In this document: piece after piece, positions 9,844 to 63,503 of the stretch | How the letters are laid out: each line of letters opens with the position of its first letter | Numbering within the stretch: the stretch's first letter is position 1 | Assembly (NCBI GenBank): GCA_021825925.1 | Contig: JAKAFP010000007.1 | Location: forward strand, 62,001-126,000 | Length of the DNA stretch: 64,000 nucleotides | From: Chloroflexota bacterium | GTDB lineage: Bacteria > Chloroflexota > Anaerolineae > Anaerolineales > Anaerolineaceae | Direction of reading: 5' to 3' | The notes under the pieces: generated by a model | What the model saw: only the letters and a program-made list of their open reading frames with translations | What the model was told of the DNA's origin: nothing | Database searches by the model: none | Position numbers and translations under genes: made by a program

Positions 9844-9871
9844 ACAATTACCTCTTGGCAAAAAACCGGTA

Positions 9872-10288: not shown

Positions 10289-10305
10289 CGTTTACTCCTG
10301 TTCAG

Positions 10306-45825: not shown

Positions 45826-46857
45826 ATGAAAAAACCGATCTATTCACTCACTGGAACACCTCCCAAATTGTTCCCCACATTGCTCAAGGGATTTAATACC
45901 ATTGCCAATCATTGGTATCTGATTCTGTTCCCAATCATCATGGATGTAGGGCTTTGGCTGGGACCCAAGCTCAAGGTCAAGACCTTGCTCATGCCTTTCA
46001 TCACGACCATGACCCAAAATGTGCTTAAGATCAGCACGCCTGAAATGATGCCGACGGCCAAAACCTACCAGACCCTGTGGGATCAATTGATCAGTCAGTT
46101 CAACCTGACCTCCATGCTTCGCACTTTTCCTGTCGGTATTCCAAGCATCATTGCCCGGCAGTCACCCATCACATCCCCGCTCGGACCCGGCGTTTCTTAC
46201 GATCTCCCTTCCGTCAACTGGGTTTTCATTTCCCTCGGCGTCCTCTTGCTGGTCGGATTCTTACTAGGCAGCATCTACTTCATTTTGGTGGCACAGGTCA
46301 CCTCGCCAGAACAAAACAAAACAAGTTTGAAGGATGTCTTTTCTGCTTATCTGCAAAGCCTGGTCATGTTCTGCCTGGTGATTATATTGTTGGTCTTGAT
46401 CACCGTTCCCTTGCTGATGCTGCTCTCGCTGCTTTCATTGATCAGCCTTGGAATCGGACAGTTCTTTATGCTGGTGGCGGCATTCATGCTGCTCTGGCTG
46501 CTGATGCCCCTCGTCTTTTCACCGCACGGGGTGTTTGTCTTGAAACAAAAAGCCCTGCCTTCAATGTTGATCTCGGTCCGCCTGGTGAGATTATTCCTGC
46601 CTGGCACCGGCTTGTTCGTCATGACCAGCATCTTGATCAGCGAAGGCTTGAACATGTTGTGGACGCTGCCCGATCCATCCTCATGGATGACCTTGATCGG
46701 CATCGGCGGACACGCCTTCATTATCACCGGATTACTCGCAGCCAGTTTTATTTATTACCGCGAAGGTTTAAAATGGATGCAGGACAACCTGCAGAAGATG
46801 GCTGAAGCCACAAAAATGCAACAAGAAAACGGAGGCACCACCCTTGAGCAACGATAA
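45826..46857 (+). CDS. multi-pass membrane protein upstream of gyrB
   Basis: This 343-residue protein has about six membrane helices (for example [40 protein letters not shown] and [20 protein letters not shown]) and a cytoplasmic C-terminal coiled-coil-like tail rich in Lys, Gln and Glu. It resembles glycerophosphodiesterase membrane-domain-like or DUF proteins; the function is unknown. It overlaps the TTG start of gyrB by 14 bases, so the two are probably cotranscribed. Confidence 0.75.
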
Positions 46858-48769
46858 TGCATCCTCTTACGGCGCTAAAGATATTCAGGTACTTGAAGGA
46901 CTCGAAGCAGTCCGCCGCCGTCCCGGCATGTACGTGGGTGGCACGGACCTCAAAGCGCTTCATCACCTGGTCTATGAAGTTGTGGATAACGCCATTGACG
47001 AAGCACTGGCGGGCGTCTGCAACCGCATCGAAGTGGTGATCAACGCCGACAGCAGCGTCAGCGTCATAGACAACGGCCGCGGCATCCCCGTGGATATCCA
47101 CCCTGAAAAGAAGAAATCGGCTCTAGAAGTCGTCATGACCATTTTGCATGCCGGCGGCAAGTTCGGTCACTCCGCCTATAAAGTTTCGGGCGGTTTGCAC
47201 GGCGTGGGTGTTTCAGCCGTCAACGCGCTTTCAGAATGGTGTGAAGTCCGCGTCTACCTTAATGGGCAGATCCACTTCCAACGCTATGAACGCGGCATCC
47301 CCCAGGAACAAGTCAAGGTGATCGGCAAGTGCGATCCCAAACAAAGCGGCACCAACGTTACCTTCAAATTTGACCGCGAGATCTTCAAAGAAGAAGGCAT
47401 TGACTTCAAGTTTGATACTTTGGTAGCGCGTTTCAGAGAAATGGCCTTTGTTACCCGCAACGTCACCATCAAACTGGTGGATAACCGTCCGCCAGAACGC
47501 GAGATCACCTTCCTGTTTGAAGGCGGCATCACCTCCTTCGTGCGCTACATGAACAAGAACCGCGAAGTGCTGCATCCTGTTTTCTACGTTGAAAAAGAAA
47601 TTGACAACATCGGCATTGAAATTGCGCTTCAGTATACTGATGCCTACAGTGAAGCCGTTTACTCTTTCGCCAACACCATCAATACCATTGATGGTGGCAC
47701 CCACATGACCGGCCTGCGCACAGCAGTGACACGCGTGGTCAATGATTACGCCAAGCGCGCCAAATTGCTCAAAGATGTGGACCCCAACTTTAGCGGCGAT
47801 GATACCCGCGAAGGCATGACCGCCATCGTCAGCATCAAACACCCGGACCCTCAGTTTGAAAGCCAGACCAAGGTCAAGCTGATGAACCCTGAAGTGCAGA
47901 CCTATGTGCAGCAGGTGGTGGGTGAAGCTTTCAGCGCCTTTTTGGATGAAAATCCGGCAGCGGCGAAAGCCATCATCACCAAATGCTTAACATCAGCCCG
48001 CGCCCGCGATGCAGCCCGCAAAGCCCGTGACCTTGTCATCCGCAAGTCGGCCCTCGAAAGCCTGACCCTGCCCGGCAAATTGGCAGATTGCTCTGAACGC
48101 GACAGTACCAAAACCGAGATCTACATCGTGGAAGGTAACTCGGCAGGCGGCTCCGCCAAAATGGGCCGCGACCGCCACTTCCAGGCCATCCTGCCGCTGC
48201 GCGGTAAGATCCTCAATACCGAACGCGCCCGCTTGGATAAAATGCTCGGCAACGAAGAGATCAAGTCCATGATCTCGGCCTTCGGCACCGGCATTGGCGA
48301 TAACTTCGACCTCAAGAACCTGCGCTACGGACGCATCATCATCATGACCGATGCTGACGTGGATGGCTCGCACATCCGCACCCTGCTGCTGACCTTGTTC
48401 TTCCGCTATATGAAGCAGCTCATCGAACAGGGCCACATCTATATTGCCCAACCGCCGTTGTATCGTGTCGCCCACCGCCAAACGGTCAAGTACTTATACG
48501 ATGACGCCAGTAAGGATGCCTACCTGAAGGAATTGGGTCCCGTCGCCGATAAGGCCACCATGCAGCGTTACAAAGGTCTGGGCGAAATGAACCCCGAACA
48601 GCTTTGGGAGACCACCATGAACCCCGAGAGCCGCACCCTGCTGCAGGTTTCGATCGAAGATGCCGCCACCGCGGATCACACCTTCGATATGCTGATGGGG
48701 GCTGCCGTGCCGCCGCGTACCAAATTCATCACCACCCACGCCCACGCTGTAAGAAACCTCGACGTTTAA
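46844..48769 (+). CDS. gyrB: DNA gyrase subunit B
   Basis: This 641-residue GyrB has the GHKL ATPase ([40 protein letters not shown]), transducer, and TOPRIM domains ([30 protein letters not shown]), ending in the usual conserved short C-terminus RNLDV. Start is TTG at 46844, supported by GGAGG nine bases upstream and overlap with the previous gene. ParE is the alternative; the length and C-terminus favour GyrB. A transposon end lies one base after its stop codon, leaving the coding sequence intact. Confidence 0.93.
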
Positions 48770-48770
48770 A

Positions 48771-48965
48771 TGTAGGAAATCATAAATAGTGGCAATTGAT
48801 ACTATAAATGTTGGCAATGAAAACGAATAAATTGGCAGTAGACTACACATAAATAATGGCAATAGGCTTCAATAAGTTAATTAGTATTACTGACTTGTAA
48901 TAGCTCACATTATCATTTATGTCGCGATTTAAATAATTGGCAGTAGCCTACATAGACGTAGGCTA
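48771..48965. repeat. transposon end with five TnsB-type binding sites
   Basis: The terminus TGTAGG is followed by sites with cores TGGCAAT at 48790, TGGCAAT at 48812, TGGCAGT at 48833, TGGCAAT at 48857 and TGGCAGT at 48938. All lie on the same strand; the first four are spaced 22, 21 and 24 bases. The surrounding consensus is about AAATAATTGGCARTAGnCTAC. The fifth site continues into a small hairpin (TAGCCTAC / GTAGGCTA, 48944-48965). This is the pattern of a Tn7-type end bound by transposase TnsB. The remaining bases up to 49152 hold no gene. Confidence 0.85.
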
Positions 48966-49152
48966 TTGTATTTAATATATAGCTATCAAGACTAAGTCAA
49001 TATTATGCAATTACTCATTTTTCCGCAGTTTGACGTAGAAAGAAAATGAGCCTAAGATTAACAATTATTGAATAATGAGGGTTTTGGAATAATATCAATC
49101 TTTTTTTGAAAAAATATCATTATCAAAATGCGTGCAATTTGGTGGAGGACTC

Positions 49153-50973
49153 ATGGAATTTAATAATGCAGACATTAAAAATCCTCAAATGGAAGAATTT
49201 TCCACAAAGGAAGGGTATATTACTGATTATATTTCAGGACAATTAGTGAGAGATATACCTGAAGAAAGAGAAGCTGTCCAAGTTTTTTCAAAAATTTTAG
49301 TCGAAGATTATAACTATCCTAAGAATCATATTCAGACTCATCCTCAATGGAGAGTAAAAGTACGCCCATCTGATAATAAAAAAGAATATCCAATAGACAT
49401 CGCCGTTTTCTCAAATGAGAATAAAATTGACGATACTGTCCATATAATTGTTGAATGCAAAAAGAAGAATAGACGCGATGGTCGAAGTCAACTTGAAGAT
49501 TATTTAAGGTTTTCAACGGCTCGCATGGGGGTATGGTTCAATGGGAATGAAAGACTTTATTTAGTAAAAACTGAAAGAGATGGAAAAGTAATATTCAGCG
49601 AGATTCCTAACATACCTCGTTTTGGTCAGCGATTAGAAGATGTCGGAAAATTTAAACGGATGGATTTGAAACCTGCCACGAATCTTAAAACTGTGTTTAA
49701 GAGTATTAGAAATTACCTTGCTGCAAATGCAGTAGGAATTACAAGAGATGAAGTGTTTGCTCAACAATTAATTAATCTAATTTTTTGTAAAATTTATGAT
49801 GAAAGATTCACAAAACCTGATGAAATTGTTACTTTTCGAGCTGGTGTAAATGAAGAAAACTCGGTAGTCAAGGGAAGAATTGATAAACTCTTTGCAAGAG
49901 TAAAAGACCAATATAGTGACGTAATAGAAGTGGCAGATAGTATTACATTGGATGCAAATACTCTCACATATATAGTGGGAGAACTCCATAATTATTCATT
50001 ATCAGATTCAGAGAGGGATGCTGTTGCTGAAGCATTTGAAATTTTTATTGGCCCCTCATTAAAAGGCGGTCAGGGACAATTTTTTACACCACGCAATGTT
50101 GTAAAAATGGTTGTCGATATGATTGACCCCGGAATTGATGAAAGAATAATTGACCCAGCGTGTGGAAGTGGAGGATTTCTCGTTGAATCACTTCGCCATG
50201 TTTGGAAAAAAGTGGAAAATCGTGGGGCAGATTATGGTTGGCCAGACCATGAAATATTTGCAGAGAAACAACGTGTTGCAATTAAAAATTTTCGTGGAAT
50301 AGATAAAGACAACTTCTTAAGCAAAGTCGCTAAAGCATATATGGCAATTTTGGGGGATGGTCGAGGAGGGGTTTATTGTGAAAACAGCTTGGATGACCCT
50401 CAACATTGGAGTGCCGAGGCTCGTAAGGACGTTCCATTTGGTTCGTTTGATATTGTGATTACGAATCCTCCTTTCGGTAAGAAATTAGCAGTCGATACTT
50501 CCGAGATTTTACAAATGTATGATCTTGGTCATTCTTGGAATGTGGATGATGAAGGGAAATTCATAAAAGGAGTAATTCAAGAGCAACAACCTCCACAACT
50601 GTTATTTATTGAAAGGTGTTTTAATCTCCTTCGACCGGGCGGGAAATTAGGTATTGTCCTTCTGGAGAGTATCTTCGGAATGCCGAAATACAAATATGTT
50701 GTCGATTACATCAATCGAAACGCAAAAATCTTAGCCATTGTTGCCTTACCTGAAGATTTATTCCAACCACACACTCATGCAAAAACCTGTGTCATTATTT
50801 GCGAAAAAACTCCCACAGCTATACCATATGACATATTTATGTGTGACGTAAAATGGTGTGGGCATGATAGTAGAGGAAACCCCACTTATACCTATAATGA
50901 AAAAGGAGAAAAAATAATTCTCGATGAAATTCCGCAGGTAGCAACTGTTTTCAAACAAGGGAAGAATTTATGA
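49153..50973 (+). CDS. BcgI-like restriction-modification subunit (nuclease-methylase fusion)
   Basis: This 606-residue protein fuses an N-terminal PD-(D/E)xK nuclease of the HsdR_N type (YPIDIAVF then HIIVECKKKN, about residues 80-110) to a gamma-class N6-adenine methylase. The methylase part shows GQFFTPRNVVKMVV, motif I DPACGSGGFL, and motif IV ITNPPFGKK. No helicase domain is present and no hsdR gene is nearby, so it is better described as type IIB/IIG (BcgI-A-like) than type I HsdM. ATG 49153 has GGAGG five bases upstream; an in-frame GTG seven codons earlier is less likely. The stop overlaps the specificity gene (ATGA). AT-rich, unlike the core genome. Confidence 0.85.
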   Translation: MEFNNADIKNPQMEEFSTKEGYITDYISGQLVRDIPEEREAVQVFSKILVEDYNYPKNHIQTHPQWRVKVRPSDNKKEYPIDIAVFSNENKIDDTVHIIVECKKKNRRDGRSQLEDYLRFSTARMGVWFNGNERLYLVKTERDGKVIFSEIPNIPRFGQRLEDVGKFKRMDLKPATNLKTVFKSIRNYLAANAVGITRDEVFAQQLINLIFCKIYDERFTKPDEIVTFRAGVNEENSVVKGRIDKLFARVKDQYSDVIEVADSITLDANTLTYIVGELHNYSLSDSERDAVAEAFEIFIGPSLKGGQGQFFTPRNVVKMVVDMIDPGIDERIIDPACGSGGFLVESLRHVWKKVENRGADYGWPDHEIFAEKQRVAIKNFRGIDKDNFLSKVAKAYMAILGDGRGGVYCENSLDDPQHWSAEARKDVPFGSFDIVITNPPFGKKLAVDTSEILQMYDLGHSWNVDDEGKFIKGVIQEQQPPQLLFIERCFNLLRPGGKLGIVLLESIFGMPKYKYVVDYINRNAKILAIVALPEDLFQPHTHAKTCVIICEKTPTAIPYDIFMCDVKWCGHDSRGNPTYTYNEKGEKIILDEIPQVATVFKQGKNL

Positions 50974-52451
50974 TAAGTTACTGGATTAAGTCAACGGATA
51001 TTAAGGAATCTACATATATTCCAAAATATTATGACCCTGAAATTATTGAAAGTATCACCCGTTTACGCCCTTCCCATTATTTATTTTCAATTGGCGACTT
51101 AGTTAATAACCAAATTATTACTTTAACAACCGGAGATGAAATAGGGAAAAGTGCTTATGGTACAGGTGATATTCCATTTGTTCGAACATCGGACATTGCA
51201 AATTGGGAAATAAAAACAGCTCCGAAACAAGGGGTATCCAAAGAGATTTATGATGAATATTCTCTTTCTCAAAATGTTAATGAAGGCGATATATTGCTCG
51301 TTAGAGACGGGACTTACTTAATTGGTCATAATTGTTTCATAACAGCTATTGATAAAGAGATAATCTTTCAGTCACATATTCTAAAAATTCGAATAAACAA
51401 ACCTGAAATATTTCCACCAGAGTTGTTTTTCTTAGCTTTGAATTCACCTCTTGCCCAAAAACAAATCAGGTCAATACAATTTACAGCCGACATAATCGAT
51501 ACATTGGGTCAGAGGATTAATGAAGTCATATTACCATTACCGAAAGATGAAAAAATCTGTAATGAACTGAAAATAGAGGTTTTAAACGCCCTCAAAACAA
51601 GAACAATTGGAAAAGCCTTTATTAAACACCTTCCAATAATTATCGAGACTGTATTAGAGACTAATTCGCCGAAACCTATAAGTGATTTCTTAGCTTTACC
51701 ATTATCTCAATTAGCGTCAGTAGTAACTAATCGTACCGTTACTGCCGAATTTGGAGAATTTGAAACAACTTGGTTACCATCTTCTGAAATCATTAACAAT
51801 ATATACCTTCCAAAATATTATGACCCTAAAATTCAGGAAGAATTAGATAGATTGACTTCAACATGCGAAATAAAAAGTATGGGGCAATTAAGAAATGAAA
51901 ATAAGATAAGCTACTATACAGGTGTTGAAATTGGAAAAATGGCTTACGACACTGGAGACATTCCATTTATTCGTACTTCGGATTTCTCAAATTGGGAGAT
52001 TTTGTACGACCCAAAGCAAGGCATCTCTGAACAAATTTATAATGAATACGCCGAATCTCTTGATGTGCAAGAAAATGATATTTTATTAGTTCGAGATGGA
52101 ACGTATTTAATTGGCACTTCCTGTATAGTGACAAAGGGAAATGTAAAAAGTTTATTTTGTGGAGGATTATACAAAATTCGAGTAAATCAAGATAAGGATA
52201 TTGACCCTTTTCTGTTCCTTGGATTATTAAATTCATTTATTGTAAAACGACAAATCCGAACAAAACAATTTACTCGAGATGTAATCGACACTATTGGAAA
52301 TAGAATTGATGAAATCTATATTCCAATACCGAAAGAGAAAAAAATTCGTGATGCTATTAGCAATGCAGTTAAAGCAATTATTTTTTCAAGAATTCAAAGT
52401 CGTGATGATATTAGTAGATTATCTACTTTGATTTCAATGGCTAGTAATTAG
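50970..52451 (+). CDS. restriction-modification specificity (S) subunit
   Basis: This 493-residue HsdS-like protein has two homologous target-recognition halves. The first contains IPKYYDPEI, TTGDEIGKSAYGTGDIPFVR and VRDGTYLIG; the second repeats LPKYYDPKI, YTGVEIGKMAYDTGDIPFIR and VRDGTYLIG. Each half ends in a helical stretch that would form the conserved spacer coil. It thus recognises a bipartite target, with one half-site per domain, and delivers the fused nuclease-methylase. The two halves are unusually similar, so the target may be near palindromic. It is translationally coupled to the preceding gene. Confidence 0.87.
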   Translation: MISYWIKSTDIKESTYIPKYYDPEIIESITRLRPSHYLFSIGDLVNNQIITLTTGDEIGKSAYGTGDIPFVRTSDIANWEIKTAPKQGVSKEIYDEYSLSQNVNEGDILLVRDGTYLIGHNCFITAIDKEIIFQSHILKIRINKPEIFPPELFFLALNSPLAQKQIRSIQFTADIIDTLGQRINEVILPLPKDEKICNELKIEVLNALKTRTIGKAFIKHLPIIIETVLETNSPKPISDFLALPLSQLASVVTNRTVTAEFGEFETTWLPSSEIINNIYLPKYYDPKIQEELDRLTSTCEIKSMGQLRNENKISYYTGVEIGKMAYDTGDIPFIRTSDFSNWEILYDPKQGISEQIYNEYAESLDVQENDILLVRDGTYLIGTSCIVTKGNVKSLFCGGLYKIRVNQDKDIDPFLFLGLLNSFIVKRQIRTKQFTRDVIDTIGNRIDEIYIPIPKEKKIRDAISNAVKAIIFSRIQSRDDISRLSTLISMASN

Positions 52452-52825
52452 TAAAATCATAAGTTCGAGATAGATAGTATTTTACTGGTGCAATACTGAT
52501 AGTGTAATAATTGAAGAAAAAAATAATTAACAAAATAATTTCAATAAGGAATTTGCTTGAAAAGGAAATGATTTTTTTTAGAATTCAATCAGAAATTTTT
52601 TTAATTTCTCCGATTTATGTAAGTATGAAATCAACAAATTGCTTAACATATGACGACCCTTATTTCTACCAGCTATCAATAAAAGAATTCTGAATCCAAA
52701 TGTTTATTTATTATCCTTAACAACAAATAACAACTACAATTCCGAATATTTATGTTTTGGTGAAAAACCTATTAAACCATTTGAACCTTCAATTTGAATA
52801 TTCATTTATTAAGTAAATCAATTAC
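52452..52825. other. gene-free spacer between specificity subunit and tniQ
   Basis: The stretch is very AT-rich and lies between the ends of two convergent genes. A 60-codon frame with a TTG start (52511-52693) has no ribosome binding site and low complexity, so it is not accepted as a gene. No TGGCART site or CRISPR-like repeat is visible. Confidence 0.6.
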
Positions 52826-54961
52826 TTACATTAATTCCTGTTTTTCGAACAAATAATGCTTCGAGTCATCGATTCCTGGGCCAGAGATTGGCTTAACTTT
52901 TCCTTGGTGAATTCGAGTACACATCTGTGATCGACTGATTCCAAGTATTTTTGCCATCTGTGGTGCAGATAATCGGTTTTCCACTTTCAATTTTTCAACC
53001 TCGGATAATTTGAACAAATATTCATGGCAACCATCAATCTCTGAACCAGATACTGGTTTTAACCTACCGGTCCGCGCCCATTTTTGAACAGTAAGTATTC
53101 CAACCCTCAAAAATTTTGATGCTTGTTTTGAATCAATGTAGTTTTTACTGAAGTCAATAATCGAGGATTTGGAATAAAATGTGATTAGACAAATCTTTCC
53201 TACCGGGATAATCAAGCCGGATTTTGCCCAACGATGAATTGTGATTGTTTTTACACCCAAATCGTGTGCCAATTCTTTTTCCGAAACCCATTGATTCTTA
53301 TCGAGAAGTTCTTCCTTTAACTTCGTTGAAGTATCTATAGGTAACATAACAGTATTGACACAGATTTCTTCCCCTTCAACAATGGAAGCTGGATATTTTC
53401 CATCAAAAACTTTTTGTAGTATTTCACCAATTTCAAACCCCCACCCAGCTAATTGTCTCGAAATTTGAACAATCGTTTTTCCCTTTATTCGAACTGTCTT
53501 ATCGTTAACTGGGATGACTTTACTCACTTTTTGTAAACGTCGTTTGAAATCTTCAATTGATTCTCTCGTGATTGCCCATTCCGGCGAACCATCGGATGTT
53601 CGTCCGCCAATGGCTTCAAGATGATTATGTTTTAATAAGGAATTTACCAAAGTTTTTGATATACCTAACATTTCACAAGTCGTGGTCATATTGACAGTTT
53701 CAGACAATCTTTTTGAATATGCCAAAACGTCTTTCTGGCTGACAACAATCTTGTTTCTTTTTGTTTGTAGCTCCTTGGACTCTATTTTTCCACAATCAAC
53801 TAGCCGTTGGATTTTTGTCGGTAGAGATTTTATTTCTCTCGAAGCCAAAGAAACCGTAATATATTTAAATTTTTCTTTTAGTTGTGGATTTTCGAGCATT
53901 CTTCTAGATTTTGCTATTCCTGGGTATAGAATTTCTGCTTCATTGACTAGGAATTCATTAAATGCTTCTTGTAAAAATTCAAATTCTTCAGATAACCATC
54001 TTTTTTCCAACCATCCCCAATATAGATTCCCTAATCCGAGGGAAACATTTTTATTTTTACTCTCATCGGCATAATCTCTCCAAAACCCTTCCATACAAAA
54101 AGGAAATGCAAAAAGGGGAGTTATTGCAGATATGTTTAGTTTATGAAGGTATTTATTTGGAAGTATCCATTTCTCCAAATCCTGATTTTTAAGTTTTGAA
54201 ATGTCAAAATCAGGGAAGGCATGTAGATGTTTCCAATCTCCCTTTTTTTGAATACAATGCTTAAGACCTGTAAATAGTTTATATTGTGTATTTATTGAAA
54301 CCCCTTCAATTAAAGACCGAGGTTCACCCATTCCCATCCAACTATTTAGTACAAGTTGGACACCTATTGACAAACCATCTTCAGAAATACTGCAAGTTTC
54401 AGAGCTTCGTAAGTCAAAATTACATTTAGGGCAATGACAATTTACGATGTCGCTTACCGATAGATTGCTTCCGCACTTATCACAATAGTCAATTAATAAA
54501 TTGTTGTGTTTTAAACACACTGTTGTAGACAATAGATGCCACTCAAGTTTGTAATATGCGGCTTCAACCAAACATGAAGGACAAAAAGCAGTCTGTTTTA
54601 TGGAACGACAACTTCTACGACAGGTTTCATGGCTGGAAAGGTAAACATCTTCTCCTGTAGACAGGGTAATGAATTCAGGCCTTTTTTCGAAGGGAACAAA
54701 AATATCAGCGAATTTGTGAACAGTGTGATGGATTGACCTCCCTTCTGGCAGCCCACATAACTGTTCAATCGCTTTATATGTTTCTGGGCGAGTCGGATTA
54801 TCCAAGTTATCTTTTTCGCCAAACAAGCAAGTACGTTCATTAATTACACTTTTAAAAATTCCGTACGAATCATAGCTATTTGCATAAGCAGTTCGAAGTA
54901 GATATGATGGAAGGAACTCATCAGGATATATTGTTGGTACTCGTAAAAAAGATTCTGTCAT
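52826..54961 (-). CDS. tniQ: TnsD-like target-selector TniQ with tandem HTH modules
   Basis: This 711-residue protein has the TniQ N-terminal region (VPTIYPDEFLPSYLLRTAY, residues 8-26) and zinc fingers with CPSC, CLKH, CDKCG and CHCPKC (about 127-180). The C-terminal half carries repeated HTH modules, each with a helix pair and a short wing: about 367-418, 421-475 (TTCEMLGISKTLVNSLLKH), 556-602 (SEKELAHDLGVKTITIHRWA), 608-656 (DSKQASKFLRVGILTVQKWA) and 661-710 (SAPQMAKILGISRSQM). As in TnsD, it would bind the attachment site and recruit TnsC. Position of the element points to the gyrB 3' end as that site. It starts two bases after the tnsC stop. Confidence 0.88.
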   Translation of the reverse strand: MTESFLRVPTIYPDEFLPSYLLRTAYANSYDSYGIFKSVINERTCLFGEKDNLDNPTRPETYKAIEQLCGLPEGRSIHHTVHKFADIFVPFEKRPEFITLSTGEDVYLSSHETCRRSCRSIKQTAFCPSCLVEAAYYKLEWHLLSTTVCLKHNNLLIDYCDKCGSNLSVSDIVNCHCPKCNFDLRSSETCSISEDGLSIGVQLVLNSWMGMGEPRSLIEGVSINTQYKLFTGLKHCIQKKGDWKHLHAFPDFDISKLKNQDLEKWILPNKYLHKLNISAITPLFAFPFCMEGFWRDYADESKNKNVSLGLGNLYWGWLEKRWLSEEFEFLQEAFNEFLVNEAEILYPGIAKSRRMLENPQLKEKFKYITVSLASREIKSLPTKIQRLVDCGKIESKELQTKRNKIVVSQKDVLAYSKRLSETVNMTTTCEMLGISKTLVNSLLKHNHLEAIGGRTSDGSPEWAITRESIEDFKRRLQKVSKVIPVNDKTVRIKGKTIVQISRQLAGWGFEIGEILQKVFDGKYPASIVEGEEICVNTVMLPIDTSTKLKEELLDKNQWVSEKELAHDLGVKTITIHRWAKSGLIIPVGKICLITFYSKSSIIDFSKNYIDSKQASKFLRVGILTVQKWARTGRLKPVSGSEIDGCHEYLFKLSEVEKLKVENRLSAPQMAKILGISRSQMCTRIHQGKVKPISGPGIDDSKHYLFEKQELM

Positions 54962-54963
54962 AA

Positions 54964-55920
54964 TTACCTAGTCGTTAAAGTGCCACTAATGTCAATTCGC
55001 TTTTTCGGCATTTCCGCTTTTTCTGTAGGTGATACAAAATTTTCATCCGCACCTGTTTTGAAAGGGTTCTCTTTATTTGGTAAATAATCAGAAATTCTTT
55101 GACGAAATGCTTCCGATAAATCACGAAGCTCAATCGAACTACGCTTACTTTCTACCGCACTCAAACCAGCATATCTAACTAAATTCATAATATTACCTAC
55201 GATTCCATCAGTAGAATAAAATATTCGGTAAAGCATCTCTACCCTTGGAACAGCAGCCGTTAGCGGCAAATTAACAACCTTCTCTGCAAATTGTATAAAC
55301 ATTGAAAACTCTTTAATACTGACTTCATTTGTCCACTTGAACGGTTCAAGTTTTTCTCGACATGCAAACAATCGGGATAACTGATTATTTGCCTTCAATA
55401 TTCTGCTCACCTTTCCATCAATTCCAACAACAAGAAACGGGATTCCCGTTTGCTTTATAAGCATTTTTAACCAATCTGATACCAGATTCATTATGTGATT
55501 TGTTTCGGAATCAATTAGATTCGAAAATTCGTCCAGAATCACAAGTTCAACACCACATGTTTTTATTAATCCCACCAACCTAGTATTCATCGACCATAGA
55601 GTACCTTTATTTGCACCTGGGTCACCTAATTGTTGAAGTAAGCAAGAAGCTGTTCCTTTCACAGTGGCAGGCGAAGGAATTTCGGCATAAAAAACTGGAA
55701 TTATCGTGCCGTTTTCGGTTTCTCGCCTTGGGAACATACTTGAATAATCTTTTACAAGGGTCGATTTACCAGCACCAGATTCACCTTCAAGAGACATACA
55801 CTGGGGTTCGAGAGTGGTTTTTGAAAGTTCTTGACATCTCTGAATTTCCTTGTGTAATTCTTTAAAACGAGGATAACGGACAAAACGTGCATTTAAACTT
55901 GCTATTGTTTGTTCAGTCAT
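54964..55920 (-). CDS. tnsC: TnsC-like transposition AAA+ ATPase
   Basis: This 318-residue AAA+ protein links target selector to transposase. Walker A is GESGAGKST (residues 46-54) and Walker B VELVILDEF (Asp130-Glu131), followed by sensor-like residues in FLVVGIDGK. The compact size is typical of TniB/short TnsC. It probably forms filaments or rings on target DNA that recruit TnsAB and give target immunity. It lies between tnsB (14-base gap) and tniQ (two-base gap) in one operon. Confidence 0.9.
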   Translation of the reverse strand: MTEQTIASLNARFVRYPRFKELHKEIQRCQELSKTTLEPQCMSLEGESGAGKSTLVKDYSSMFPRRETENGTIIPVFYAEIPSPATVKGTASCLLQQLGDPGANKGTLWSMNTRLVGLIKTCGVELVILDEFSNLIDSETNHIMNLVSDWLKMLIKQTGIPFLVVGIDGKVSRILKANNQLSRLFACREKLEPFKWTNEVSIKEFSMFIQFAEKVVNLPLTAAVPRVEMLYRIFYSTDGIVGNIMNLVRYAGLSAVESKRSSIELRDLSEAFRQRISDYLPNKENPFKTGADENFVSPTEKAEMPKKRIDISGTLTTR

Positions 55921-55934
55921 TTAATGGTTTTCTC

Positions 55935-57959
55935 CTAGAATGTTGTTTTTTGATTTGCTGGGATGCCGTCAGCGACTTCCCATCCTTCAGACATATCATT
56001 TGATGAAGTGATTTCTATATCCATCAGTTGATTTTTTACTACTTTAACTTCTTGTGGTTTCGGCAACAATTTTGGTTTATTCTCCTTTTCTGCGAGACTT
56101 TTTGGTTTTCCCCCAGTATCCCAACGATTAATTTTGGCTCGATGTGTAACTTTCGAACGGCTACGACCTGCATCCACAATTTCTTGGATTTTTATTTTTG
56201 CCCTTCCTAAAGCTGCCAAATTTTCTTTGTCCCCTTCTACTTTGGCATATTGTTTTATAACTTTATGTTTCCAAGAGGATAGATTTTCAGTATATTCTTG
56301 GTCTAGTGCAGGTACTTCTATATAAGTTTGCTCATATTCATTAAAAACATGAATTCGGCTTAAGTCACCGGGATGATACTTAATTTTTACTTTTTCACCT
56401 CTTTTCTTTAATCGCAAATATGCCAGATCTTGACAGTTATAGCGAATACAATCGACATCGATTCCATATTTATGAATCGTTCTATAATCGACCCTACCCA
56501 ATAAAATCCGTAGTCTTTCAGCATCTCTCGGTAGCCGTGGGAAAAAATTTGTATCTAATGCATTTTCCCATCTTCGAGCTGGGACACCTTTAAGCCCTTG
56601 ATGAAATCGTTCACAATACTCATCTACAATATAGATATTCAGTATTTTCTCCAACTCATTTACCGAAATACATGCCAATTTTTCACTTTGGTAATCACTC
56701 TTTTCTAAGAAATTTGAAAAGGTTGTTCCAGGCAATTGATGAAACAGTTGCGAGTTGATAGTTCTAAAATTTCTTTCGACTCCTCCCTTGAATTCAGGAG
56801 TCTTTACCGGAGCAATTGCTAAAACAATTCCAAGGGATTCACATGCATCAGTTAAGTCTTTTCCAATTAGTTCCTTCCCTTGGTCTACGACAAATGTATT
56901 TGGAATTCCATATGCAATCCAATCATGTTCAGTTCCATATATTTTTTTTACATCCGGTTTTGGCAAAATAGAAAGATACAAACATTCCAAGACAGAATAA
57001 TAAGAGGGTGGTTCAAACCCCAAGTAATACCCTAGTGGATAACGAGTTGCCATATCGAGAGCAAAACTAATAGTGCATCGGCCTAACGGTAGGTTATCAT
57101 TTTCATCGATAACAATTAAATCTGTCTTTGTGTGGTCAAATTCAACACGTTCCAAAGGCAAATCAGGATATTTTGTTTTACCAACTTGTTTAATCATCTT
57201 TCCAGCAATTTTCTTGCCATATTTTCCTGTCAACCTATCTTTATAATCCAAGGATTCTATACGCCTTGCTACTGTTGAGAGGGCTGGAACTGATAATTGT
57301 TCGGTCCTTGGTCGAAACCGGTTTTCTTCTTCGATTCGTGCGGCTAATACTGCCAAAGTTCCGTGCACTGATGATTCTTCGCGGGAAGATACTGGCGAAT
57401 TGATAACAGAATCAACTAAGTTCAAAACCTCTATTGGCAGACGTGATTTTCCAGGGCCACCTTTTCGCTTTACATTGGGTATTAAGCAACGAATCTCCCC
57501 TCCTCCTGATTCATAGTCTGCTATCCAACGATAAAGTGACCGAACTGACATAGGTTGGCGAGCTTTTTTTGCTTCTTCATACAATTGGTTTGACCTTTCT
57601 ATAAACAACTTATGTGTTCTATCAGTTCCTAGAAGCAGTAGTGGTGTTATCGCTTGGAGACGAAATTGGGCTATATCCACAAGATGTGGTGCGTAATCCG
57701 CAAGGTCAATATTAAATTCTTCTGGATGTGGAACGGAGGCATTCTCATTTTTTCGTTTTATTCGAGTTTGGGTTAAGAAACTAAGTTTTCCGTTTTGTAA
57801 TTCCTTAACTAATTCATCCAATGTGCGAGTAATGATTACGTTACTATCTACTTCCTGCAGAGTAATCTTTTGACCATTATCCAGAGTATGGTTTAATACT
57901 TCATATTGGATGGAGTTGTAAGTAACTTTCGTACCGATACTAAACCGATGAGATGTCAT
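55935..57959 (-). CDS. tnsB: TnsB-like DDE transposase
   Basis: This 674-residue transposase joins transposon 3' ends to target DNA. N-terminal HTH domains (about 100-240, including SVRSLYRWIADYE and SVPALSTVARRIESL) would bind the end repeats. The RNase H-fold core has Asp275 in FDHTKTD, Asp359 in FVVDQGKEL and Glu395 in GGVERNFRT, with a D-35-E spacing. A beta-barrel and a C-terminal tail follow; the tail may contact TnsC. It overlaps tnsA by four bases. Confidence 0.93.
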   Translation of the reverse strand: MTSHRFSIGTKVTYNSIQYEVLNHTLDNGQKITLQEVDSNVIITRTLDELVKELQNGKLSFLTQTRIKRKNENASVPHPEEFNIDLADYAPHLVDIAQFRLQAITPLLLLGTDRTHKLFIERSNQLYEEAKKARQPMSVRSLYRWIADYESGGGEIRCLIPNVKRKGGPGKSRLPIEVLNLVDSVINSPVSSREESSVHGTLAVLAARIEEENRFRPRTEQLSVPALSTVARRIESLDYKDRLTGKYGKKIAGKMIKQVGKTKYPDLPLERVEFDHTKTDLIVIDENDNLPLGRCTISFALDMATRYPLGYYLGFEPPSYYSVLECLYLSILPKPDVKKIYGTEHDWIAYGIPNTFVVDQGKELIGKDLTDACESLGIVLAIAPVKTPEFKGGVERNFRTINSQLFHQLPGTTFSNFLEKSDYQSEKLACISVNELEKILNIYIVDEYCERFHQGLKGVPARRWENALDTNFFPRLPRDAERLRILLGRVDYRTIHKYGIDVDCIRYNCQDLAYLRLKKRGEKVKIKYHPGDLSRIHVFNEYEQTYIEVPALDQEYTENLSSWKHKVIKQYAKVEGDKENLAALGRAKIKIQEIVDAGRSRSKVTHRAKINRWDTGGKPKSLAEKENKPKLLPKPQEVKVVKNQLMDIEITSSNDMSEGWEVADGIPANQKTTF

Positions 57960-58603
57960 GCGTTTTCCTCCACTTTATATTCCAATTGAATAGTCGTATT
58001 TGGGGAAATTAGGCCACTTTCTATTGGCATTGAAAGACGATGGTGATAAGTCAAGTGAAAGATGGCTGGATAAATCCTATTTCTTTCATAGCTAGTTAAA
58101 TGATTTTCTATTTCCGCTAATCGAGCATTTGGGTTATCCTGTAAATACGAATATATCGCGGCAACAAGTTCTGGTTGGATTTCAAATCGTGAAAAACCAG
58201 TCAGGAATTTTATATTTTTCAATCGACAACCTGCCCTGATGAGTTCATCAGTAATAACCTGAAACCCCCATTCACCATCCTTACACCAACGTTCAGCAAC
58301 TTCGAATTTAATTCGATTTTTTGAGGAATTAATAAATCTCTTTGGTTTGCATTCATAAAGCCAATTTTCTCCATTTACCACTGCATGAAAATCAGGAGTA
58401 TAGGAATACGATTTTCCATTTATCTTGTAATCTATCCGAATAGGTTGTTCTTCAAAATGAGTAATTCGTTTATCGTAATCAAGGAGGTATATAAAATCCC
58501 GCTCCAATCCAGATTCAAAATGAATCATGCGATTCATTTTGAAAGACGGGTATTTCCCAGTAAAACTTCCACTGTGATTTTGCGGTTTACGAACAGGCGA
58601 CAT
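57956..58603 (-). CDS. tnsA: TnsA-like endonuclease
   Basis: This 215-residue restriction-like nuclease cuts the transposon 5' ends, giving cut-and-paste movement. Catalytic residues are Glu34 in FESGLERD, Asp71 in YTPDF and the ECK of WLYECKPK (Glu84, Lys86). The C-terminal part (LAEIENHLTSYERNRIYPA) is a winged-helix-like domain that in Tn7 contacts TnsC. It is the first gene of the tns operon, facing a divergent Xre regulator. Confidence 0.9.
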   Translation of the reverse strand: MSPVRKPQNHSGSFTGKYPSFKMNRMIHFESGLERDFIYLLDYDKRITHFEEQPIRIDYKINGKSYSYTPDFHAVVNGENWLYECKPKRFINSSKNRIKFEVAERWCKDGEWGFQVITDELIRAGCRLKNIKFLTGFSRFEIQPELVAAIYSYLQDNPNARLAEIENHLTSYERNRIYPAIFHLTYHHRLSMPIESGLISPNTTIQLEYKVEENA

Positions 58604-58872
58604 TAAATAATCCTCCGAAATTTGGTTATCAGGGTTAATTTCTAATTCTCTTTTTTAGGTAGTTCAGGTTCAAGCGATATATTACTGTTGTTGAATAATT
58701 ACTCTAGTCAAAATGCTAAAAACAAAATAAAATAAATAAGAAGATGTTGCACATTTCGTGTGGCCTACTTATGTAGCGCATCTTATTTACACTACTATTA
58801 TACCGGTAATTTCAGTCCATGTCAATGGTAATTCGACGGTAATATTGGCAATGTCTTTTAATTGAGGTTTAT
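58604..58872. promoter_or_regulatory. divergent regulatory region between tnsA and the Xre gene
   Basis: Four related hexamers precede the Xre gene: GGTAAT at 58805, 58827 and 58838, and GGCAAT at 58847. Steps of 22, 11 and 9 bases place them roughly on one DNA face. AAGATG at 58741 and CATCTT at 58776 form an inverted pair. The TTGGCAATG at 58845-58853 also matches the transposon-end site at 48811. These are probable operators of the Xre protein for its own gene and for the tns operon. Confidence 0.5.
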
Positions 58873-59823
58873 ATGGTAACTTTTGGCTCATGGATACAAA
58901 AACTGCGAAAAGACTCCGGTATTGACTTACGAACAATTGGTCAAATCTCCGGCATCCATTTCACTTCCATTGGTCGCATTGAAAAGGGACAAAACGACCC
59001 GACTCTTGAAAGTGCTGTCAAGATAACTACCGCATTGAAAGGTAATCCTTCCGAGTTATGTCAATTAATCACTGGAACGACTCCCCCATCACCATACATC
59101 CTAGATAATAATTCTCATATGTTCCCAACCATAGAAGATGTTTTATTATTTGAAAAACTAATTATAGAAAAACCGAAATCCACCGGAGAATATTTTGCTC
59201 ATTTGTTGAATAAGGTTGTCGATTTATTCTCTCCAAATGAAGAAATTTATCGGAAAGATTTACCAAATCCTTTTCAAAATAAGGAAGTCGAGTGGTTAAA
59301 TGAATCATTATTAAAACCGACCTTTTCAGCCATCGACGTTCAAAAATTCTTACTTCATCCCTCACGAAGTAATATCTCATTTATTCTTACCCCCAAATGT
59401 AACTATCCTGAACAATTTGATCCTGGGATTATTATAAAAATATATATGAACAACGGTGTCCTAATAGCTGAAGATTTGGTACGGTACACGATAAATGAAT
59501 TTGAAAACTCGGAATTTACATCTTTTACTGACGACAAAAAAATTATTCACAAATTTATAAAAATTCAACAAATAATATCAAAAATTGAAGAACAGAATCA
59601 GTTTTCGGGTATTAAACTAAGTGATATAGTTTTGGTAAACAACAAATTTTCCAACCAAGGGGAAATCTTTATGATGGCATGGAATGCGGCAAGTGAGGAA
59701 ATCCGAGTTAAAGTTCAACTTAACGCTTCTAATGCTGCAAGATTATTGATAATAATGAGCCGCTATCTATCCACCCTTAATAACCCTGAACCAGACTGGC
59801 TAAATAGATTGCACAATTTATAA
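58873..59823 (+). CDS. Xre-family regulator divergent from the tns operon
   Basis: This 316-residue protein has an N-terminal Xre HTH (IDLRTIGQISGIHFTSIGRI followed by EKGQNDPTLESAV, residues about 16-48). A large C-terminal part (about 70-316) has no recognised domain and could sense a partner or ligand. GAGG precedes the ATG. It may repress transposition, as Cro/Xre-like regulators do in several Tn7-like and CRISPR-associated Tn7 elements; that is inference from position. Confidence 0.8.
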   Translation: MVTFGSWIQKLRKDSGIDLRTIGQISGIHFTSIGRIEKGQNDPTLESAVKITTALKGNPSELCQLITGTTPPSPYILDNNSHMFPTIEDVLLFEKLIIEKPKSTGEYFAHLLNKVVDLFSPNEEIYRKDLPNPFQNKEVEWLNESLLKPTFSAIDVQKFLLHPSRSNISFILTPKCNYPEQFDPGIIIKIYMNNGVLIAEDLVRYTINEFENSEFTSFTDDKKIIHKFIKIQQIISKIEEQNQFSGIKLSDIVLVNNKFSNQGEIFMMAWNAASEEIRVKVQLNASNAARLLIIMSRYLSTLNNPEPDWLNRLHNL

Positions 59824-60178
59824 CAATATTTTTTTATTTTCGATAATCTTATGCGCAAACAAAAAATTCCATCAAGCGACTATAGTCATCAGTATTAAGA
59901 CAATTTCTATATCATTCTATCGTGTTTCATTGTTTCAATATTAATTAATTTTTGATTACAGCAGGTTTAATATCAGATAATCAATGAATCATCCATTCTC
60001 TATGTAAGGCTAAAAACTTAATTACTCAAGAAAATAATAATTATATTAATGTAAGGAAATAATATTTATTATATTATATATAATTATCTAATTTTTGATT
60101 AATTTGTGATATACTAGTAATATAAGTTTTGAAAGAATAACTTTTTTATCTTCAACAATAGATAAAGGAGATAACAAA
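59824..60178. promoter_or_regulatory. AT-rich intergenic region with promoter
   Basis: No gene is seen. Near its right end TTGATT (60095), 17 bases, TAATAT (60118) and an overlapping extended -10 TGATATACT (60107-60115) could drive the gene at 60179, which has AAAGGAG as ribosome binding site. The left two thirds is low-complexity AT. Confidence 0.5.
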
Positions 60179-61093
60179 ATGAACCGACAAATAGCCCTTA
60201 TCCCAACCCCACAAGACTTATACAAAATTGCTCACCATATCCCAGAGCTAGAACGAAATCAAGTCGAACAATCTACAGAAGAAAAAGAACATTTGGAGGA
60301 ATTAATTAGTGTTTTTTTTCGCGCAGCACTTGACGATTCTGAAGGAGTAATTACAGAAGAAATGTTGATGGTGGCTGATAATCTCTATGGGCCAGGAATG
60401 TCAAACATAATTGCTAGTTCTCTTGGGGTTGGAACAGGAGAATTACGGAAACTTCTATCTAAGAAAATAACTAAATCATGCAGACAATGCCATAAGCCAT
60501 TTACCGTTGTGGAACAACGTGTAGTTAATGGATATAGTGATAATGGTGGGACTCTTTGTCCGGCTTGCTCAAAACTAGAATGTGAAAAAAATGAGAAAAC
60601 AAAACGAAGTGAGGCTGATTATCGCACTCGCATGTTAGAGTTTGATAATCAACTATTACTAAATAATGAAGATGATTTGTTTGAAAATCCAGATTTTATT
60701 GAAATGATTGAAAAATTCGCACGAAATTGGATTGTAGGAGCTAATAATAATTTTATTGATGGAGTGCCTTATCGTGGTGGCTGCATGTTATGTGGTACAA
60801 AACCTGTCCGAGTTTTTGTTCGGGATTTAAATATTCTCACTTCAACAATAAAGTCAATTTGGGATTATTGGGAAAATCGCCGCAAAGAGGTTCAACAAGA
60901 GCCATATATTCCGTTTCCCCCACTTCAGAAAAACTCTCAATTTCTTTCGCGATTTAGCCCAACTGGTTATTTCGATTCGATGTTATATTATCCAATCCTT
61001 AAATTTCCACTGATAATTTTATGTGAGAATTGTGGAAAAAATAATGCTTATAATTTTATCGATATACTGGGAGTTGATTTCAATAGTAGATAG
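60179..61093 (+). CDS. Cys-rich hypothetical cargo protein
   Basis: This 304-residue protein is not recognised. It has a first CxxC pair pattern CRQCHKPF and CPACSKLEC (about residues 101-130), a second CMLCGTKPVRVF (about 201), and a last LCENCGKNNAYN near residue 281. That makes at least three zinc-ribbon-type knuckles, suggesting metal or nucleic-acid binding. The middle stretch is acidic and helical. It stands alone with its own promoter between the Xre gene and the HipA locus. Confidence 0.65.
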   Translation: MNRQIALIPTPQDLYKIAHHIPELERNQVEQSTEEKEHLEELISVFFRAALDDSEGVITEEMLMVADNLYGPGMSNIIASSLGVGTGELRKLLSKKITKSCRQCHKPFTVVEQRVVNGYSDNGGTLCPACSKLECEKNEKTKRSEADYRTRMLEFDNQLLLNNEDDLFENPDFIEMIEKFARNWIVGANNNFIDGVPYRGGCMLCGTKPVRVFVRDLNILTSTIKSIWDYWENRRKEVQQEPYIPFPPLQKNSQFLSRFSPTGYFDSMLYYPILKFPLIILCENCGKNNAYNFIDILGVDFNSR

Positions 61094-61281
61094 ATTGTGA
61101 TTAGGTAGTTTCGTTTTCGATAATTAGAGATTATCGAAACCAACGTGTTTTCTAAAGATTGCTCAACTTTCTGGTAATTCATTACCGAATAGATGAAAAA
61201 ACTAACCTTTCTAGCAATAAATTGCCAAATATCTTTTCTAAAATTTTCTTGTTAATCACGCGAAAAGATGGAGATTGCCAA

Positions 61282-62580
61282 GTGAGCAATGCAAAGGTAT
61301 TTTTATGGAACAGTGAAGTTGGGATTGCTTCCTGGGACTCAAATCGAAATATCAGTTCATTTCGATATAATCCCGACTTTATTACTTCAGAACTTCAATT
61401 ATCACCATTAGTGATGCCATTAAATAAGAATCCTTACAATTTTCCAGAACTCGAATTCATTACTTTCAAAGGATTACCGGGACTGTTGATGGATTCACTC
61501 CCAGATAAGTTTGGGAATAAGGTTATTGATAAATGGTTAGTAATGCAAAACAGAGATGAAACAAGTTTTAATCCTATTGACCGATTATGTTTTATCGGAA
61601 ATCGTGGTATGGGGGCACTTGAATATGAGCCATCCATTCTAGACTCACCCTCAAAAAACAGTAAGTTAGAGATGTCCAAGATGGTTGGATTAGCCAATAA
61701 AATACTCGATCAACGAGAATATTCAGTAGATTCTTTCATCAAATATAATAATCAAGATAATATGGGAGACATTATATGGGCTGGAACTTCTGCTGGTGGT
61801 TCAAGAGCAAAAGCGATAATCGCTTGGAATGAAATCTCGAAGGAGTTTATTCCTGAACAACTCTCACTCCCACCCGGTTTTGAACATTGGTTAATAAAAT
61901 TCGATGGGATTAAAAACAACCGGGACAAAGAGCGTACAGACCCAATGGGATATGGAAAAATTGAATATGCTTATTACCTAATGGCTTTAAAAGCTGGAAT
62001 AAAAATGTCGGAATGTCGTCTTTATAACGAAAATGAGCGAAACCATTTTATTACAAAGCGATTTGACCGGAATCCAAATGGGAGCAAAATTCACATGCAA
62101 TCGCTTTGTGCAATTGCTCACATGGATTTCAATCAAGTAGGGCGATATTCTTACGAAGATGCAATCCATGTTATGAACCTGCTTCACTTACCGCAAGAGG
62201 ATTTGGAGCAATTTGTTTTACGAGCATTATTTAACGTAGTTGGAAGAAATCAAGACGACCATGTGAAGAATATTGCGTTTCTAATGAGCCAAGACAGTGA
62301 GTGGAGGCTCTCTCCTGCTTATGATGTTACTTATGCATATGACCCAACAGGCAAGTGGACAAACCAACATCAAATGAGTATTAATGGAAAAAGAGATAAT
62401 TTTGTGAAAGAGGATTTTTATTCTTTATCATCATGTTTTGGAATTAATAAGACTCATGTGAACGAATTGCTCGACCGTGTTATCCAGTCAATAAAAACTT
62501 GGCCTGATTTCGCAATGAAAGTAGGAATCGATGAAAAGTATGTATTGCAAATCCATGCCACTCATCGTTTATCCTTTTGA
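61282..62580 (+). CDS. HipA-family kinase toxin
   Basis: This protein of about 432 residues matches the length of E. coli HipA (440). It has the N-terminal subdomain (NAKVFLWNSEVGIASWD), FIGNRGMGALEYEP, the glycine-rich AGTSAGGSRAKAIIAW, the catalytic NVVGRNQDDHVKNIAFL and the metal-binding SPAYDVTYAY. HipA kinases phosphorylate an aminoacyl-tRNA synthetase, inhibiting growth. The frame is open further upstream from TTG 61159, but GTG 61282 with GGAG eight bases upstream gives the normal HipA N-terminus. The antitoxin-like Xre gene is downstream, the reverse of hipBA order. Confidence 0.88.
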   Translation: MSNAKVFLWNSEVGIASWDSNRNISSFRYNPDFITSELQLSPLVMPLNKNPYNFPELEFITFKGLPGLLMDSLPDKFGNKVIDKWLVMQNRDETSFNPIDRLCFIGNRGMGALEYEPSILDSPSKNSKLEMSKMVGLANKILDQREYSVDSFIKYNNQDNMGDIIWAGTSAGGSRAKAIIAWNEISKEFIPEQLSLPPGFEHWLIKFDGIKNNRDKERTDPMGYGKIEYAYYLMALKAGIKMSECRLYNENERNHFITKRFDRNPNGSKIHMQSLCAIAHMDFNQVGRYSYEDAIHVMNLLHLPQEDLEQFVLRALFNVVGRNQDDHVKNIAFLMSQDSEWRLSPAYDVTYAYDPTGKWTNQHQMSINGKRDNFVKEDFYSLSSCFGINKTHVNELLDRVIQSIKTWPDFAMKVGIDEKYVLQIHATHRLSF

Positions 62581-62615
62581 TGATGATTTCAGATGCGGGA
62601 AAATAGGTAGAGAAA

Positions 62616-62912
62616 ATGGATGATGAGTCATTCAAGGAATTATTGGAAAGTATACGTGAAGGAATGGCAATAAACCGAGGTGAACAAGAACCATCTCGTT
62701 CTTTTCATTTTTCTTCTTGTGACGTTCATTCTATTCGTAATAAATTTGGTTTTTCACAACGAGAATTCGCTATGTTATTAGGAATAAGTGTGAGAACTTT
62801 ACAAAACTGGGAAAATGGTCACAGAAAACCAACTGGTACGGCTAAAGTCCTGCTTGAAATAATTGATAAATATCCAGATGTTTTCTTGAACAAAAGAAAT
62901 AACTGCAAATGA
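62616..62912 (+). CDS. Xre-family antitoxin-like regulator
   Basis: This 98-residue protein has a C-terminal Xre HTH (SIRNKFGFSQREFAMLLGIS followed by VRTLQNWENGHRKPTG, residues about 40-75), similar to HigA/NadS-type antitoxins. The N-terminal 35 residues (ELLESIREGMAINRGEQE) may bind the toxin. It follows hipA by 35 bases and overlaps the next gene by four bases. It could be the HipB counterpart, or the regulator of a unit with the next gene. Confidence 0.8.
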   Translation: MDDESFKELLESIREGMAINRGEQEPSRSFHFSSCDVHSIRNKFGFSQREFAMLLGISVRTLQNWENGHRKPTGTAKVLLEIIDKYPDVFLNKRNNCK

Positions 62913-63424
62913 AGTATCCACATTTATATAAAGATTGGCACGATTATGATTTATTGTATCAATTTCCACAAATTGAGAGGATTCAATTATGGAAAAAATT
63001 ACGTGTTGAGGATGAAGAACGAGCGTGGTTATTCATTGAAGAACACTATCTTGATAAATACAGCAAGTTTGTAAAGATTGACCTTGATTATTCATCTACT
63101 GGAATTTGGGAAAATCCATTTCCTTCTAATAGAGCTGATATAAATATCAATCCGACAAGCCTTGGACTACCTGAAGAAGTGTGCAAAGACCTTGAGGAAT
63201 GGCAAGATTATTTTGATTTGCATTCAAGGCCGTGGGATGCAGATGAATCCTGTGATTATGAAAAACTGGATAAATGGGGATTGATTATTGCGAAAAAGGT
63301 AAAACTTTTTACCCAACCGAATGTCTATGTAGAATATCATCCATTCCGGGAATTGGCTATTATTAGAAATGAAGTGGTCGAATTAGATGTTCCAGAATTT
63401 TTAAAAATACTTACTAATTTCTAA
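62909..63424 (+). CDS. hypothetical protein coupled to the Xre gene
   Basis: This 171-residue protein is unrecognised. It is acidic and aromatic (many Trp, Tyr and Asp), with no membrane segment or known motif. The coupling ATGA overlap with the antitoxin-like gene suggests a third component of the HipA/Xre locus, possibly a further antitoxin or an inhibitor. A perfect hairpin terminator follows 32 bases after the stop. Confidence 0.65.
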   Translation: MKYPHLYKDWHDYDLLYQFPQIERIQLWKKLRVEDEERAWLFIEEHYLDKYSKFVKIDLDYSSTGIWENPFPSNRADININPTSLGLPEEVCKDLEEWQDYFDLHSRPWDADESCDYEKLDKWGLIIAKKVKLFTQPNVYVEYHPFRELAIIRNEVVELDVPEFLKILTNF

Positions 63425-63455
63425 AATTTTTATTCAAACGTATAACGTTTTTATT

Positions 63456-63503
63456 AATTAAAAAGTGCTATTGTGATTATAGTCACAATAGCACTTTTTA
63501 ATT
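63456..63503. terminator. perfect 21-bp hairpin terminator
   Basis: The arms AATTAAAAAGTGCTATTGTG(A) at 63456-63476 and the exact inverse at 63483-63503 enclose TTATAG. The A/T ends make it usable on both strands. It closes the hipA locus. The rest of 63425-63887 holds no gene, apart from the promoter and leader of the next gene. Confidence 0.85.

Follow-up and report, generated by a model that had tools for sequence, protein, structure and literature searches.

A Tn7-like transposon of a Chloroflexota bacterium that appears to home to the 3′ end of gyrB

We analyzed a 64,000-bp stretch of DNA from a Chloroflexota bacterium (the window; assembly GCA_021825925.1, contig JAKAFP010000007.1, positions 62,001 to 126,000, here G000:C12:62001-126000), which contains the first part of a Tn7-like transposon lying directly behind the essential gyrase gene gyrB. 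The assembly is fragmented, 84% complete and 5.6% contaminated. The gyrB gene (46844-48769, plus strand) is intact and encodes 641 residues with matches to Pfam DNA_gyraseB, DNA_gyraseB_C, Toprim and HATPase_c. It passes the NCBIfam gyrB cut-off (TIGR01059) and stays under both NCBIfam parE cut-offs; these cut-offs, and the single match at E 1e-100 in the genome, led us to reject parE as the target. The transposon begins with TGT at 48771, 1 bp past the gyrB TAA, and ends 9,598 bp outside the window at C12:135598, which is 73598 when window numbering is continued past 64000 (window-equivalent). It thus spans window-equivalent 48771-73598 (G000:C12:110771-135598), or 24,828 bp, of which 48771-64000 lies in the window, as defined by matching ends, a flanking duplication and a fall in GC content from about 0.52 to 0.30-0.39. 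The first-pass annotation of this DNA had correctly placed a TGT terminus with TnsB-type sites 1 bp past an intact gyrB stop, but its coordinates for the element (48761-58603) were wrong at both limits.

The proximal end opens 5′-TGTAGGAAATCATAAATA, and the two termini are TGT and ACA. When the first 20 bases were inverted, the best match was found at 73598 with 18/20 bp, while 100 random TGT starts reached a maximum of 17/20 and none reached 18/20. The sequence TTAAA precedes the first end (48766-48770) and is repeated directly past the distal end (window-equivalent 73599-73603, L002:11599-11603), so that a check of the distal end for a matching target duplication gave a positive result; the target duplication of Tn7 is likewise 5 bp long. 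Each end carries five TnsB-like TGGCA[AG]T sites within 200 bp, oriented inward, compared with ten such sites on both strands of the remaining 24,428 bp. At the gyrB-proximal end (48771-48970, plus strand) the sites start at 48790, 48812, 48833, 48857 and 48938, with the first four 21-24 bp apart, whereas at the distal end an interval of 43 bp separates the first two and the others are spaced 22-44 bp. The tight array is therefore on the gyrB side, in agreement with a 2024 review, in which overlapping TnsB sites appear to mark the end closest to the attachment site (PMC11406308).

Transposition functions are encoded by a single complete tnsA-tnsB-tnsC-tniQ operon at 52826-58603 on the minus strand, the full gene set that had been claimed for the element. 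The tniQ gene (52826-54961) encodes a 711-residue target selector of the TniQ/TnsD type (Pfam TniQ 3.2e-17, HTH_17 8.1e-21) that we also modeled with AlphaFold and searched with Foldseek. Next to it lie tnsC (54964-55920; Pfam TniB 9.6e-26, VchTnsC 1.1e-41), an AAA+ regulator whose Walker A motif GESGAGKS at residue 46 is presumably catalytic; tnsB (55935-57959; Tn6677 TnsB 1.3e-65), a DDE transposase; and tnsA (57956-58603; Pfam Tn7_TnsA-like_N 3.3e-14), an endonuclease. TnsB residues D275, D359 and E395, which we take to be the DDE catalytic triad, are invariant across 10/10 aligned rows including its own, and TnsA residues E34, D71, E84 and K86, which we assume to be catalytic, are invariant across 8/8. 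For both TnsB and TnsC the nearest solved structures by sequence come from Tn6677, a type I-F3 element. With a TnsB transposase, a TnsC ATPase, TnsA and TniQ, TGT/ACA site arrays and a 5-bp duplication, the element belongs to the Tn7-like transposons.

An empty counterpart of the insertion site is present within the genus. We searched 16 genus genomes, our own included, for gyrB. Its end could be read in 13 of the 15 relatives, the match being truncated in the other two, G127 and G130. By our own reading, no element lies behind gyrB in any of the 13. In G138, with a gyrB 95% identical to that of the window, the site is clean and empty, and native DNA continues as TAA-AACCCGTGTCAATCAGAAC (TAA-AACC). 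The matching native DNA of G000, AACCTAGGTTCCATCAGAAC, resumes only past the inserts, at window-equivalent 77226, about 3.6 kb beyond the transposon end. The intervening stretch (G000:C12:135599 to about 139225; L002:11599 to about 15225) has TGGCAAT-type sites near both edges and genes for an alpha/beta hydrolase and a MarR protein, and no core transposition gene was recognized in it. We regard it as a probable earlier insertion at this same gyrB site, by an element that is non-autonomous or has decayed. In another of the relatives read, G126 (L053), TGTAGGATGTCATAAAAT starts 1 bp past gyrB and agrees with the window element end at 14/18 bases, where the best internal TGT site of the window element reaches 13; this is possibly a relic end with no element behind it.

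We next consider other genomes, in draws by family, order, class and phylum that overlap, so that the counts cannot be summed. Other members of the phylum are Herpetosiphon giganteus, Candidatus Oscillochloris fontis and Ktedonobacter sp. SOSP1-85. A family scan with the window TniQ matched 2/147 genomes, our own and G067, a member of another genus whose TniQ, TnsA, TnsB and TnsC are 48%, 52%, 56% and 59% identical to those of the window. The G067 element starts 2 bp past gyrB, is 25,824 bp long, has ends alike at 19/20 positions and is flanked by the duplication TAGGT. Among 400 genomes of the phylum, 9 gave any TniQ match, our own included; in G682, G413, G385, G639 and G365 (the last in two pieces) the match covers most of the protein, with gyrB on the same contig and the element end at its stop, and G564, G620 and G671, which match over a short N-terminal part only, were left out of the follow-up. 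A profile of the C-terminal domain (A1), made from seven TniQ C-terminal segments, matched 8 of 396 class genomes at 1e-6, our own included, five of them new and below 1e-15; the two weakest, G757 and G920, were left out. Among the five new genomes, G821 and G1032 have elements at gyrB, and G918 has a transposon end and a TniQ directly behind gyrB with the A1-matching TniQ on a different contig, separated by contig breaks. No gyrB was found at 1e-60 in G938, which has an A1-matching TniQ. Rescanning the phylum with A1 gave 22/400 genomes at 1e-6, and below 1e-70 only our own and the five known before; a score of 2e-38 belonged to the second TniQ of G682, and the matches in the other genomes were weak (1.8e-10 or worse) and not followed up. 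In the order, A1 matched 2/370 genomes at 1e-10, our own included. The window TniQ alone found no relative in the genome_contigs and viral_contigs collections, A1 found three loci in genome_contigs that are those of G365, G385 and G682, and seven matches to TniQ in plasmid records all fell in its N-terminal part.

When the ends were lined up, ten genomes of the phylum had a transposon end 1-14 bp past the gyrB stop: 1 bp in G000 and G918, 2 bp in G067, G639 and G821, 10 bp in G682, 11 bp in G413, G365 and G1032, and 14 bp in G385. By our own reading, all ten gyrB-side ends consist of TGT followed by at least two copies of a short repeat. In nine of the ten genomes, the window's included, a TniQ matching the C-terminal domain over nearly its full length is encoded on the gyrB contig, at about 21-48% identity to the window TniQ, and in 9/9 of these linked cases the gene is placed on the gyrB side of tnsA and runs opposite to gyrB. 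Insertion behind the same gene in one orientation is thus recurrent, and the neighborhood search proposed for homologs of this TniQ did lead to gyrB 3′ ends. The same search had predicted a 5-bp duplication of the TTAAA type, which held in part. Distal ends were found in seven elements, and exact 5-bp duplications flank those of G000 (TTAAA), G067 (TAGGT) and G639 (TAGCG), so that TTAAA itself is confined to G000 and was rejected as a required target sequence.

Insertion elsewhere accompanies a different TniQ C-terminus. An order scan with the window TniQ matched 10/251 genomes, our own and G067 included, and gyrB was checked in five of the other eight (G196, G262, G169, G269 and G211; G199, G270 and G340 were left out). 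In these five the TniQ match reaches residue 604 of 711 at most, and in G262 it sits in a broken frame with unread bases. All five have gyrB on a separate contig, with no TGT-plus-repeat end in its 3′ flank. Two of the TnsB proteins are nevertheless close to that of the window, with 50% identity for G169a and 48% for G196, and in G169 (C431) a TGTAGGAAATCG end adjoins a different gene. Altogether, gyrB is free in six genomes with a related TniQ whose C-terminus is unmatched or partly matched, while elements with distant TnsB (34-41% identity) and the common TniQ C-terminus are at gyrB. So, in these sequence comparisons, the TniQ C-terminus predicts the insertion target better than the transposase does.

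We consider it very likely that the window element is a Tn7-like transposon of the cut-and-paste kind, with the 3′ end of gyrB as its homing site and a single TnsD-type TniQ, which would bind that end, as its selector. The element with its ends and duplication, the empty site, and the repeated occurrence behind gyrB are observed; the cut-and-paste mode is inferred because TnsA is present, and the element is presumably mobile today. The first-pass annotation had proposed gyrB as the attachment site, and the comparison supports it through recurrence at gyrB and free gyrB where the C-terminus differs. Several observations pull the other way. The G902 TniQ partly matches the C-terminal domain (A1 positions 5-130 of 180), and its element end lies at another gene with gyrB free. 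The gyrB-homing elements do not form one clade in either the TnsB or the TniQ tree (4 label changes each, with weak support). No matching duplication was found in G365 (ends alike at 24/24), G413 and G682 though their distal ends were found, that of G385 is only a shifted 5-6 bp match, the distal end was not found in G1032, and the G821 and G918 contigs end too early. If elements lie in tandem, as in G000 and perhaps in G385, their near and far ends would stem from different insertions, which would account for the lacking duplications. The distance to the gyrB stop varies and clusters at 1-2 bp and at 10-14 bp, a difference of about one helical turn; different selectors are the only explanation we can offer. 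Finally, 5/13 element-free gyrB ends of the genus have a bare TGT no more than 20 bp from the stop, so that TGT alone is no proof of a transposon end. As a separate observation, two similar distal ends lie 7.5 kb apart behind gyrB in G385 (Herpetosiphon giganteus), which suggests tandem or nested elements.

Alternatively, the TniQ C-terminus may not be what chooses the gyrB end: TnsC or a host protein, for example, could do so, as could the structure or supercoiling of the DNA where a highly expressed gene ends. An offset that ranges from 1 to 14 bp would fit such a choice, and the conservation of the gyrB end may be attributable to coding constraint. However, closely related TnsABC proteins with a different TniQ C-terminus go with elements elsewhere and a free gyrB, and distant TnsB proteins that share the C-terminus go with elements at gyrB, which makes this explanation unlikely. 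We regard as more improbable still the vertical inheritance of one old gyrB insertion without active targeting. All ten occupied sites are in one phylum, though nearly all whole genomes that could be searched were of that phylum, and the G000 and G067 elements have in common an HTH_3 gene (38%), a HipA gene (56%) and a distant methyltransferase match (24%). Yet occupancy is very patchy at 2/147 family and 2/370 order genomes, the points of insertion vary by as much as 13 bp, the end sequences differ, the remaining open reading frames (ORFs) of at least 90 aa find no match between G000 and G067 at 1e-5, and the same-genus G138 has a clean empty site. That the gyrB junction is an assembly join or a chance insertion might be suspected from the state of the assembly, but we give this almost no weight and reject it: the duplication and inverted ends match across 24.8 kb, G138 is empty, and the same arrangement recurs in independent assemblies such as Herpetosiphon giganteus DSM 589 and Ktedonobacter sp. 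SOSP1-85.

TniQ has an N-terminal TniQ domain, followed in the AlphaFold model by a series of C-terminal winged-helix modules. The model was built from five sequences; because its N-terminal half is poor (mean pLDDT 60.9 and pTM 0.36), we used only the C-terminal modules, where ten-residue mean pLDDT is 64-89 over residues 371-690 except for 43 at 451-460, 65-89 over 461-690, and 50-63 past 690. By our own count, the modeled C-terminus would comprise six successive winged-helix modules; a Ktedonobacter homolog has four HTH_17 stretches. In a Foldseek search TniQ structures rank first (best E 5e-4), with a TM-score of 0.13 and an rmsd of 19, which is not a good superposition. Single modules match BldC and phage Xis over 45-50 residues (rmsd 1.3-1.6, probability 0.99-1.00); their E-values start at 0.45, as the modules are short. 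We propose that the winged-helix array would read the conserved end of the gyrB coding sequence, for which the last 63 bases (48707-48769, plus strand), aligned with the nine other occupied gyrB ends, are the candidate recognition sequence. The N-terminal TniQ domain would then load TnsC, TnsC would recruit end-bound TnsA-TnsB, and these would place the element in a single orientation 1-14 bp past the stop, leaving gyrB whole. Some gyrB-homing elements have two TniQ proteins (Ktedonobacter, L079:1900-4122 and 8324-10501; G821, L119:4463-6100 and 7004-8944), which suggests a second targeting pathway. In G639 (L041:7789-10992) and G385 (G385:C3:209802-213359), gyrB itself carries a large in-frame, stop-free insertion, with a Pfam intein splicing domain in that of G639; together with the transposon, gyrB is thus parasitized twice in these genomes.

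Between the proximal end and the tns operon lie an N6 DNA methyltransferase with an HsdR-N-like domain (49132-50973, plus strand; Pfam, PADLOC) and a type I specificity-like subunit (50970-52451, plus strand; PADLOC, no Pfam match at 1e-3). Adjoining the operon on its other side is an HTH_3 regulator (58873-59823, plus strand; Pfam) with its 38% homolog at the same place in the G067 element, followed by the HipA-like kinase (61159-62580, plus strand) and, directly after it, an HTH_3/MqsA-like partner (62616-62912). The HTH_3 and HipA genes may belong to element maintenance rather than to changing cargo, because they are the only non-core genes clearly common to the G000 and G067 elements. Defense-type cargo includes a CBASS-type nucleotidyltransferase (SMODS) and SLATT_4 effector pair, which starts at 63888-64000 (plus strand) and continues past the window (L002:1888-3334), and an 870-aa PDC-S06 candidate (L002:8691-11303); a peptidase-like and an acetyltransferase-like protein are also encoded. 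We found no Cas family among the ORFs scanned and saw no CRISPR-like repeat array in the element, and a CRISPR-associated transposon (CAST) was rejected on these grounds. The scanned ORFs also contained no recognizable tyrosine-recombinase-type partner.

The first-pass annotation had suggested that gyrB with this TniQ may be new, which holds with a qualification. By titles and abstract openings, the open-access literature gave no description of a gyrB attachment site for Tn7-like or TnsD elements. The main text of one survey (PMC10293859) has no word beginning with gyr, that of another (PMC8649781) names neither gyrB nor gyrase, and in PMC12452197 gyrB serves as a phylogenetic marker. The qualification is that the paralog parE is already a published TniQ-targeted site: the 2024 review gives glmS, yhiN, comM, tRNA and parE, the last for the I-F3 element Tn7017 (PMC11406308). 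Petassi et al. 2020 is also said to treat parE sites. We conclude that gyrB is likely a new attachment site, with a new selector type, within a known kind of system. This extends the short list of Tn7 homing sites by a universally conserved one and points to a protein-only means of placing DNA behind gyrB without harm to it. Selector specificity seems to reside in a modular array of small winged-helix units, which makes DNA reading by TniQ/TnsD proteins open to direct test by module swaps.

Among known systems, Tn7 resembles the window element in its TnsABC proteins, in a TniQ-domain selector with a DNA-binding C-terminus (binding is predicted for the window TniQ), in insertion just behind a conserved gene (glmS via TnsD), and in TGT/ACA ends with tight TnsB sites next to the target. 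The window element differs in targeting gyrB, in a C-terminus modeled as a MerR/BldC-like winged-helix array, and in the absence of a recognizable TnsE-like protein among the cargo ORFs scanned; moreover, its tniQ faces the target, where in Tn7 tnsA does. Tn6022 (comM) and Tn6230 (yhiN) are also Tn7-like elements with one preferred chromosomal gene, but Tn6022 is described as inactivating its target and using TnsF (PMC10293859, PMC11406308), whereas the window element leaves gyrB intact. The tRNA-homing TnsD of type I-B2 and I-D CASTs is likewise long, with a C-terminal extension, and homes without RNA, although the target class is another and TnsAB is fused (PMC11406308, PMC10293859). The closest precedent is the type I-F3 elements with a TniQ-targeted parE site (Tn7017/EasCAST); parE is the paralog of gyrB. 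These elements carry Cascade and a second TniQ (PMC11406308), unlike the window element, in which no Cas gene was seen. With TnsB and TnsC close to those of an I-F3 element, and with parE homing in that type, the window element gives a way to approach the pre-CRISPR state of the I-F3 lineage. More tentatively, and with somewhat less than even confidence, we propose a gyrB-homing branch of Tn7-like transposons, so far undescribed, in Chloroflexota. Its selector would use six tandem BldC/MerR-like winged helices to read about 60 bp of coding sequence, and the branch may be a protein-guided counterpart or ancestor of parE homing in the I-F3 lineage, which gave rise to RNA-guided transposons.

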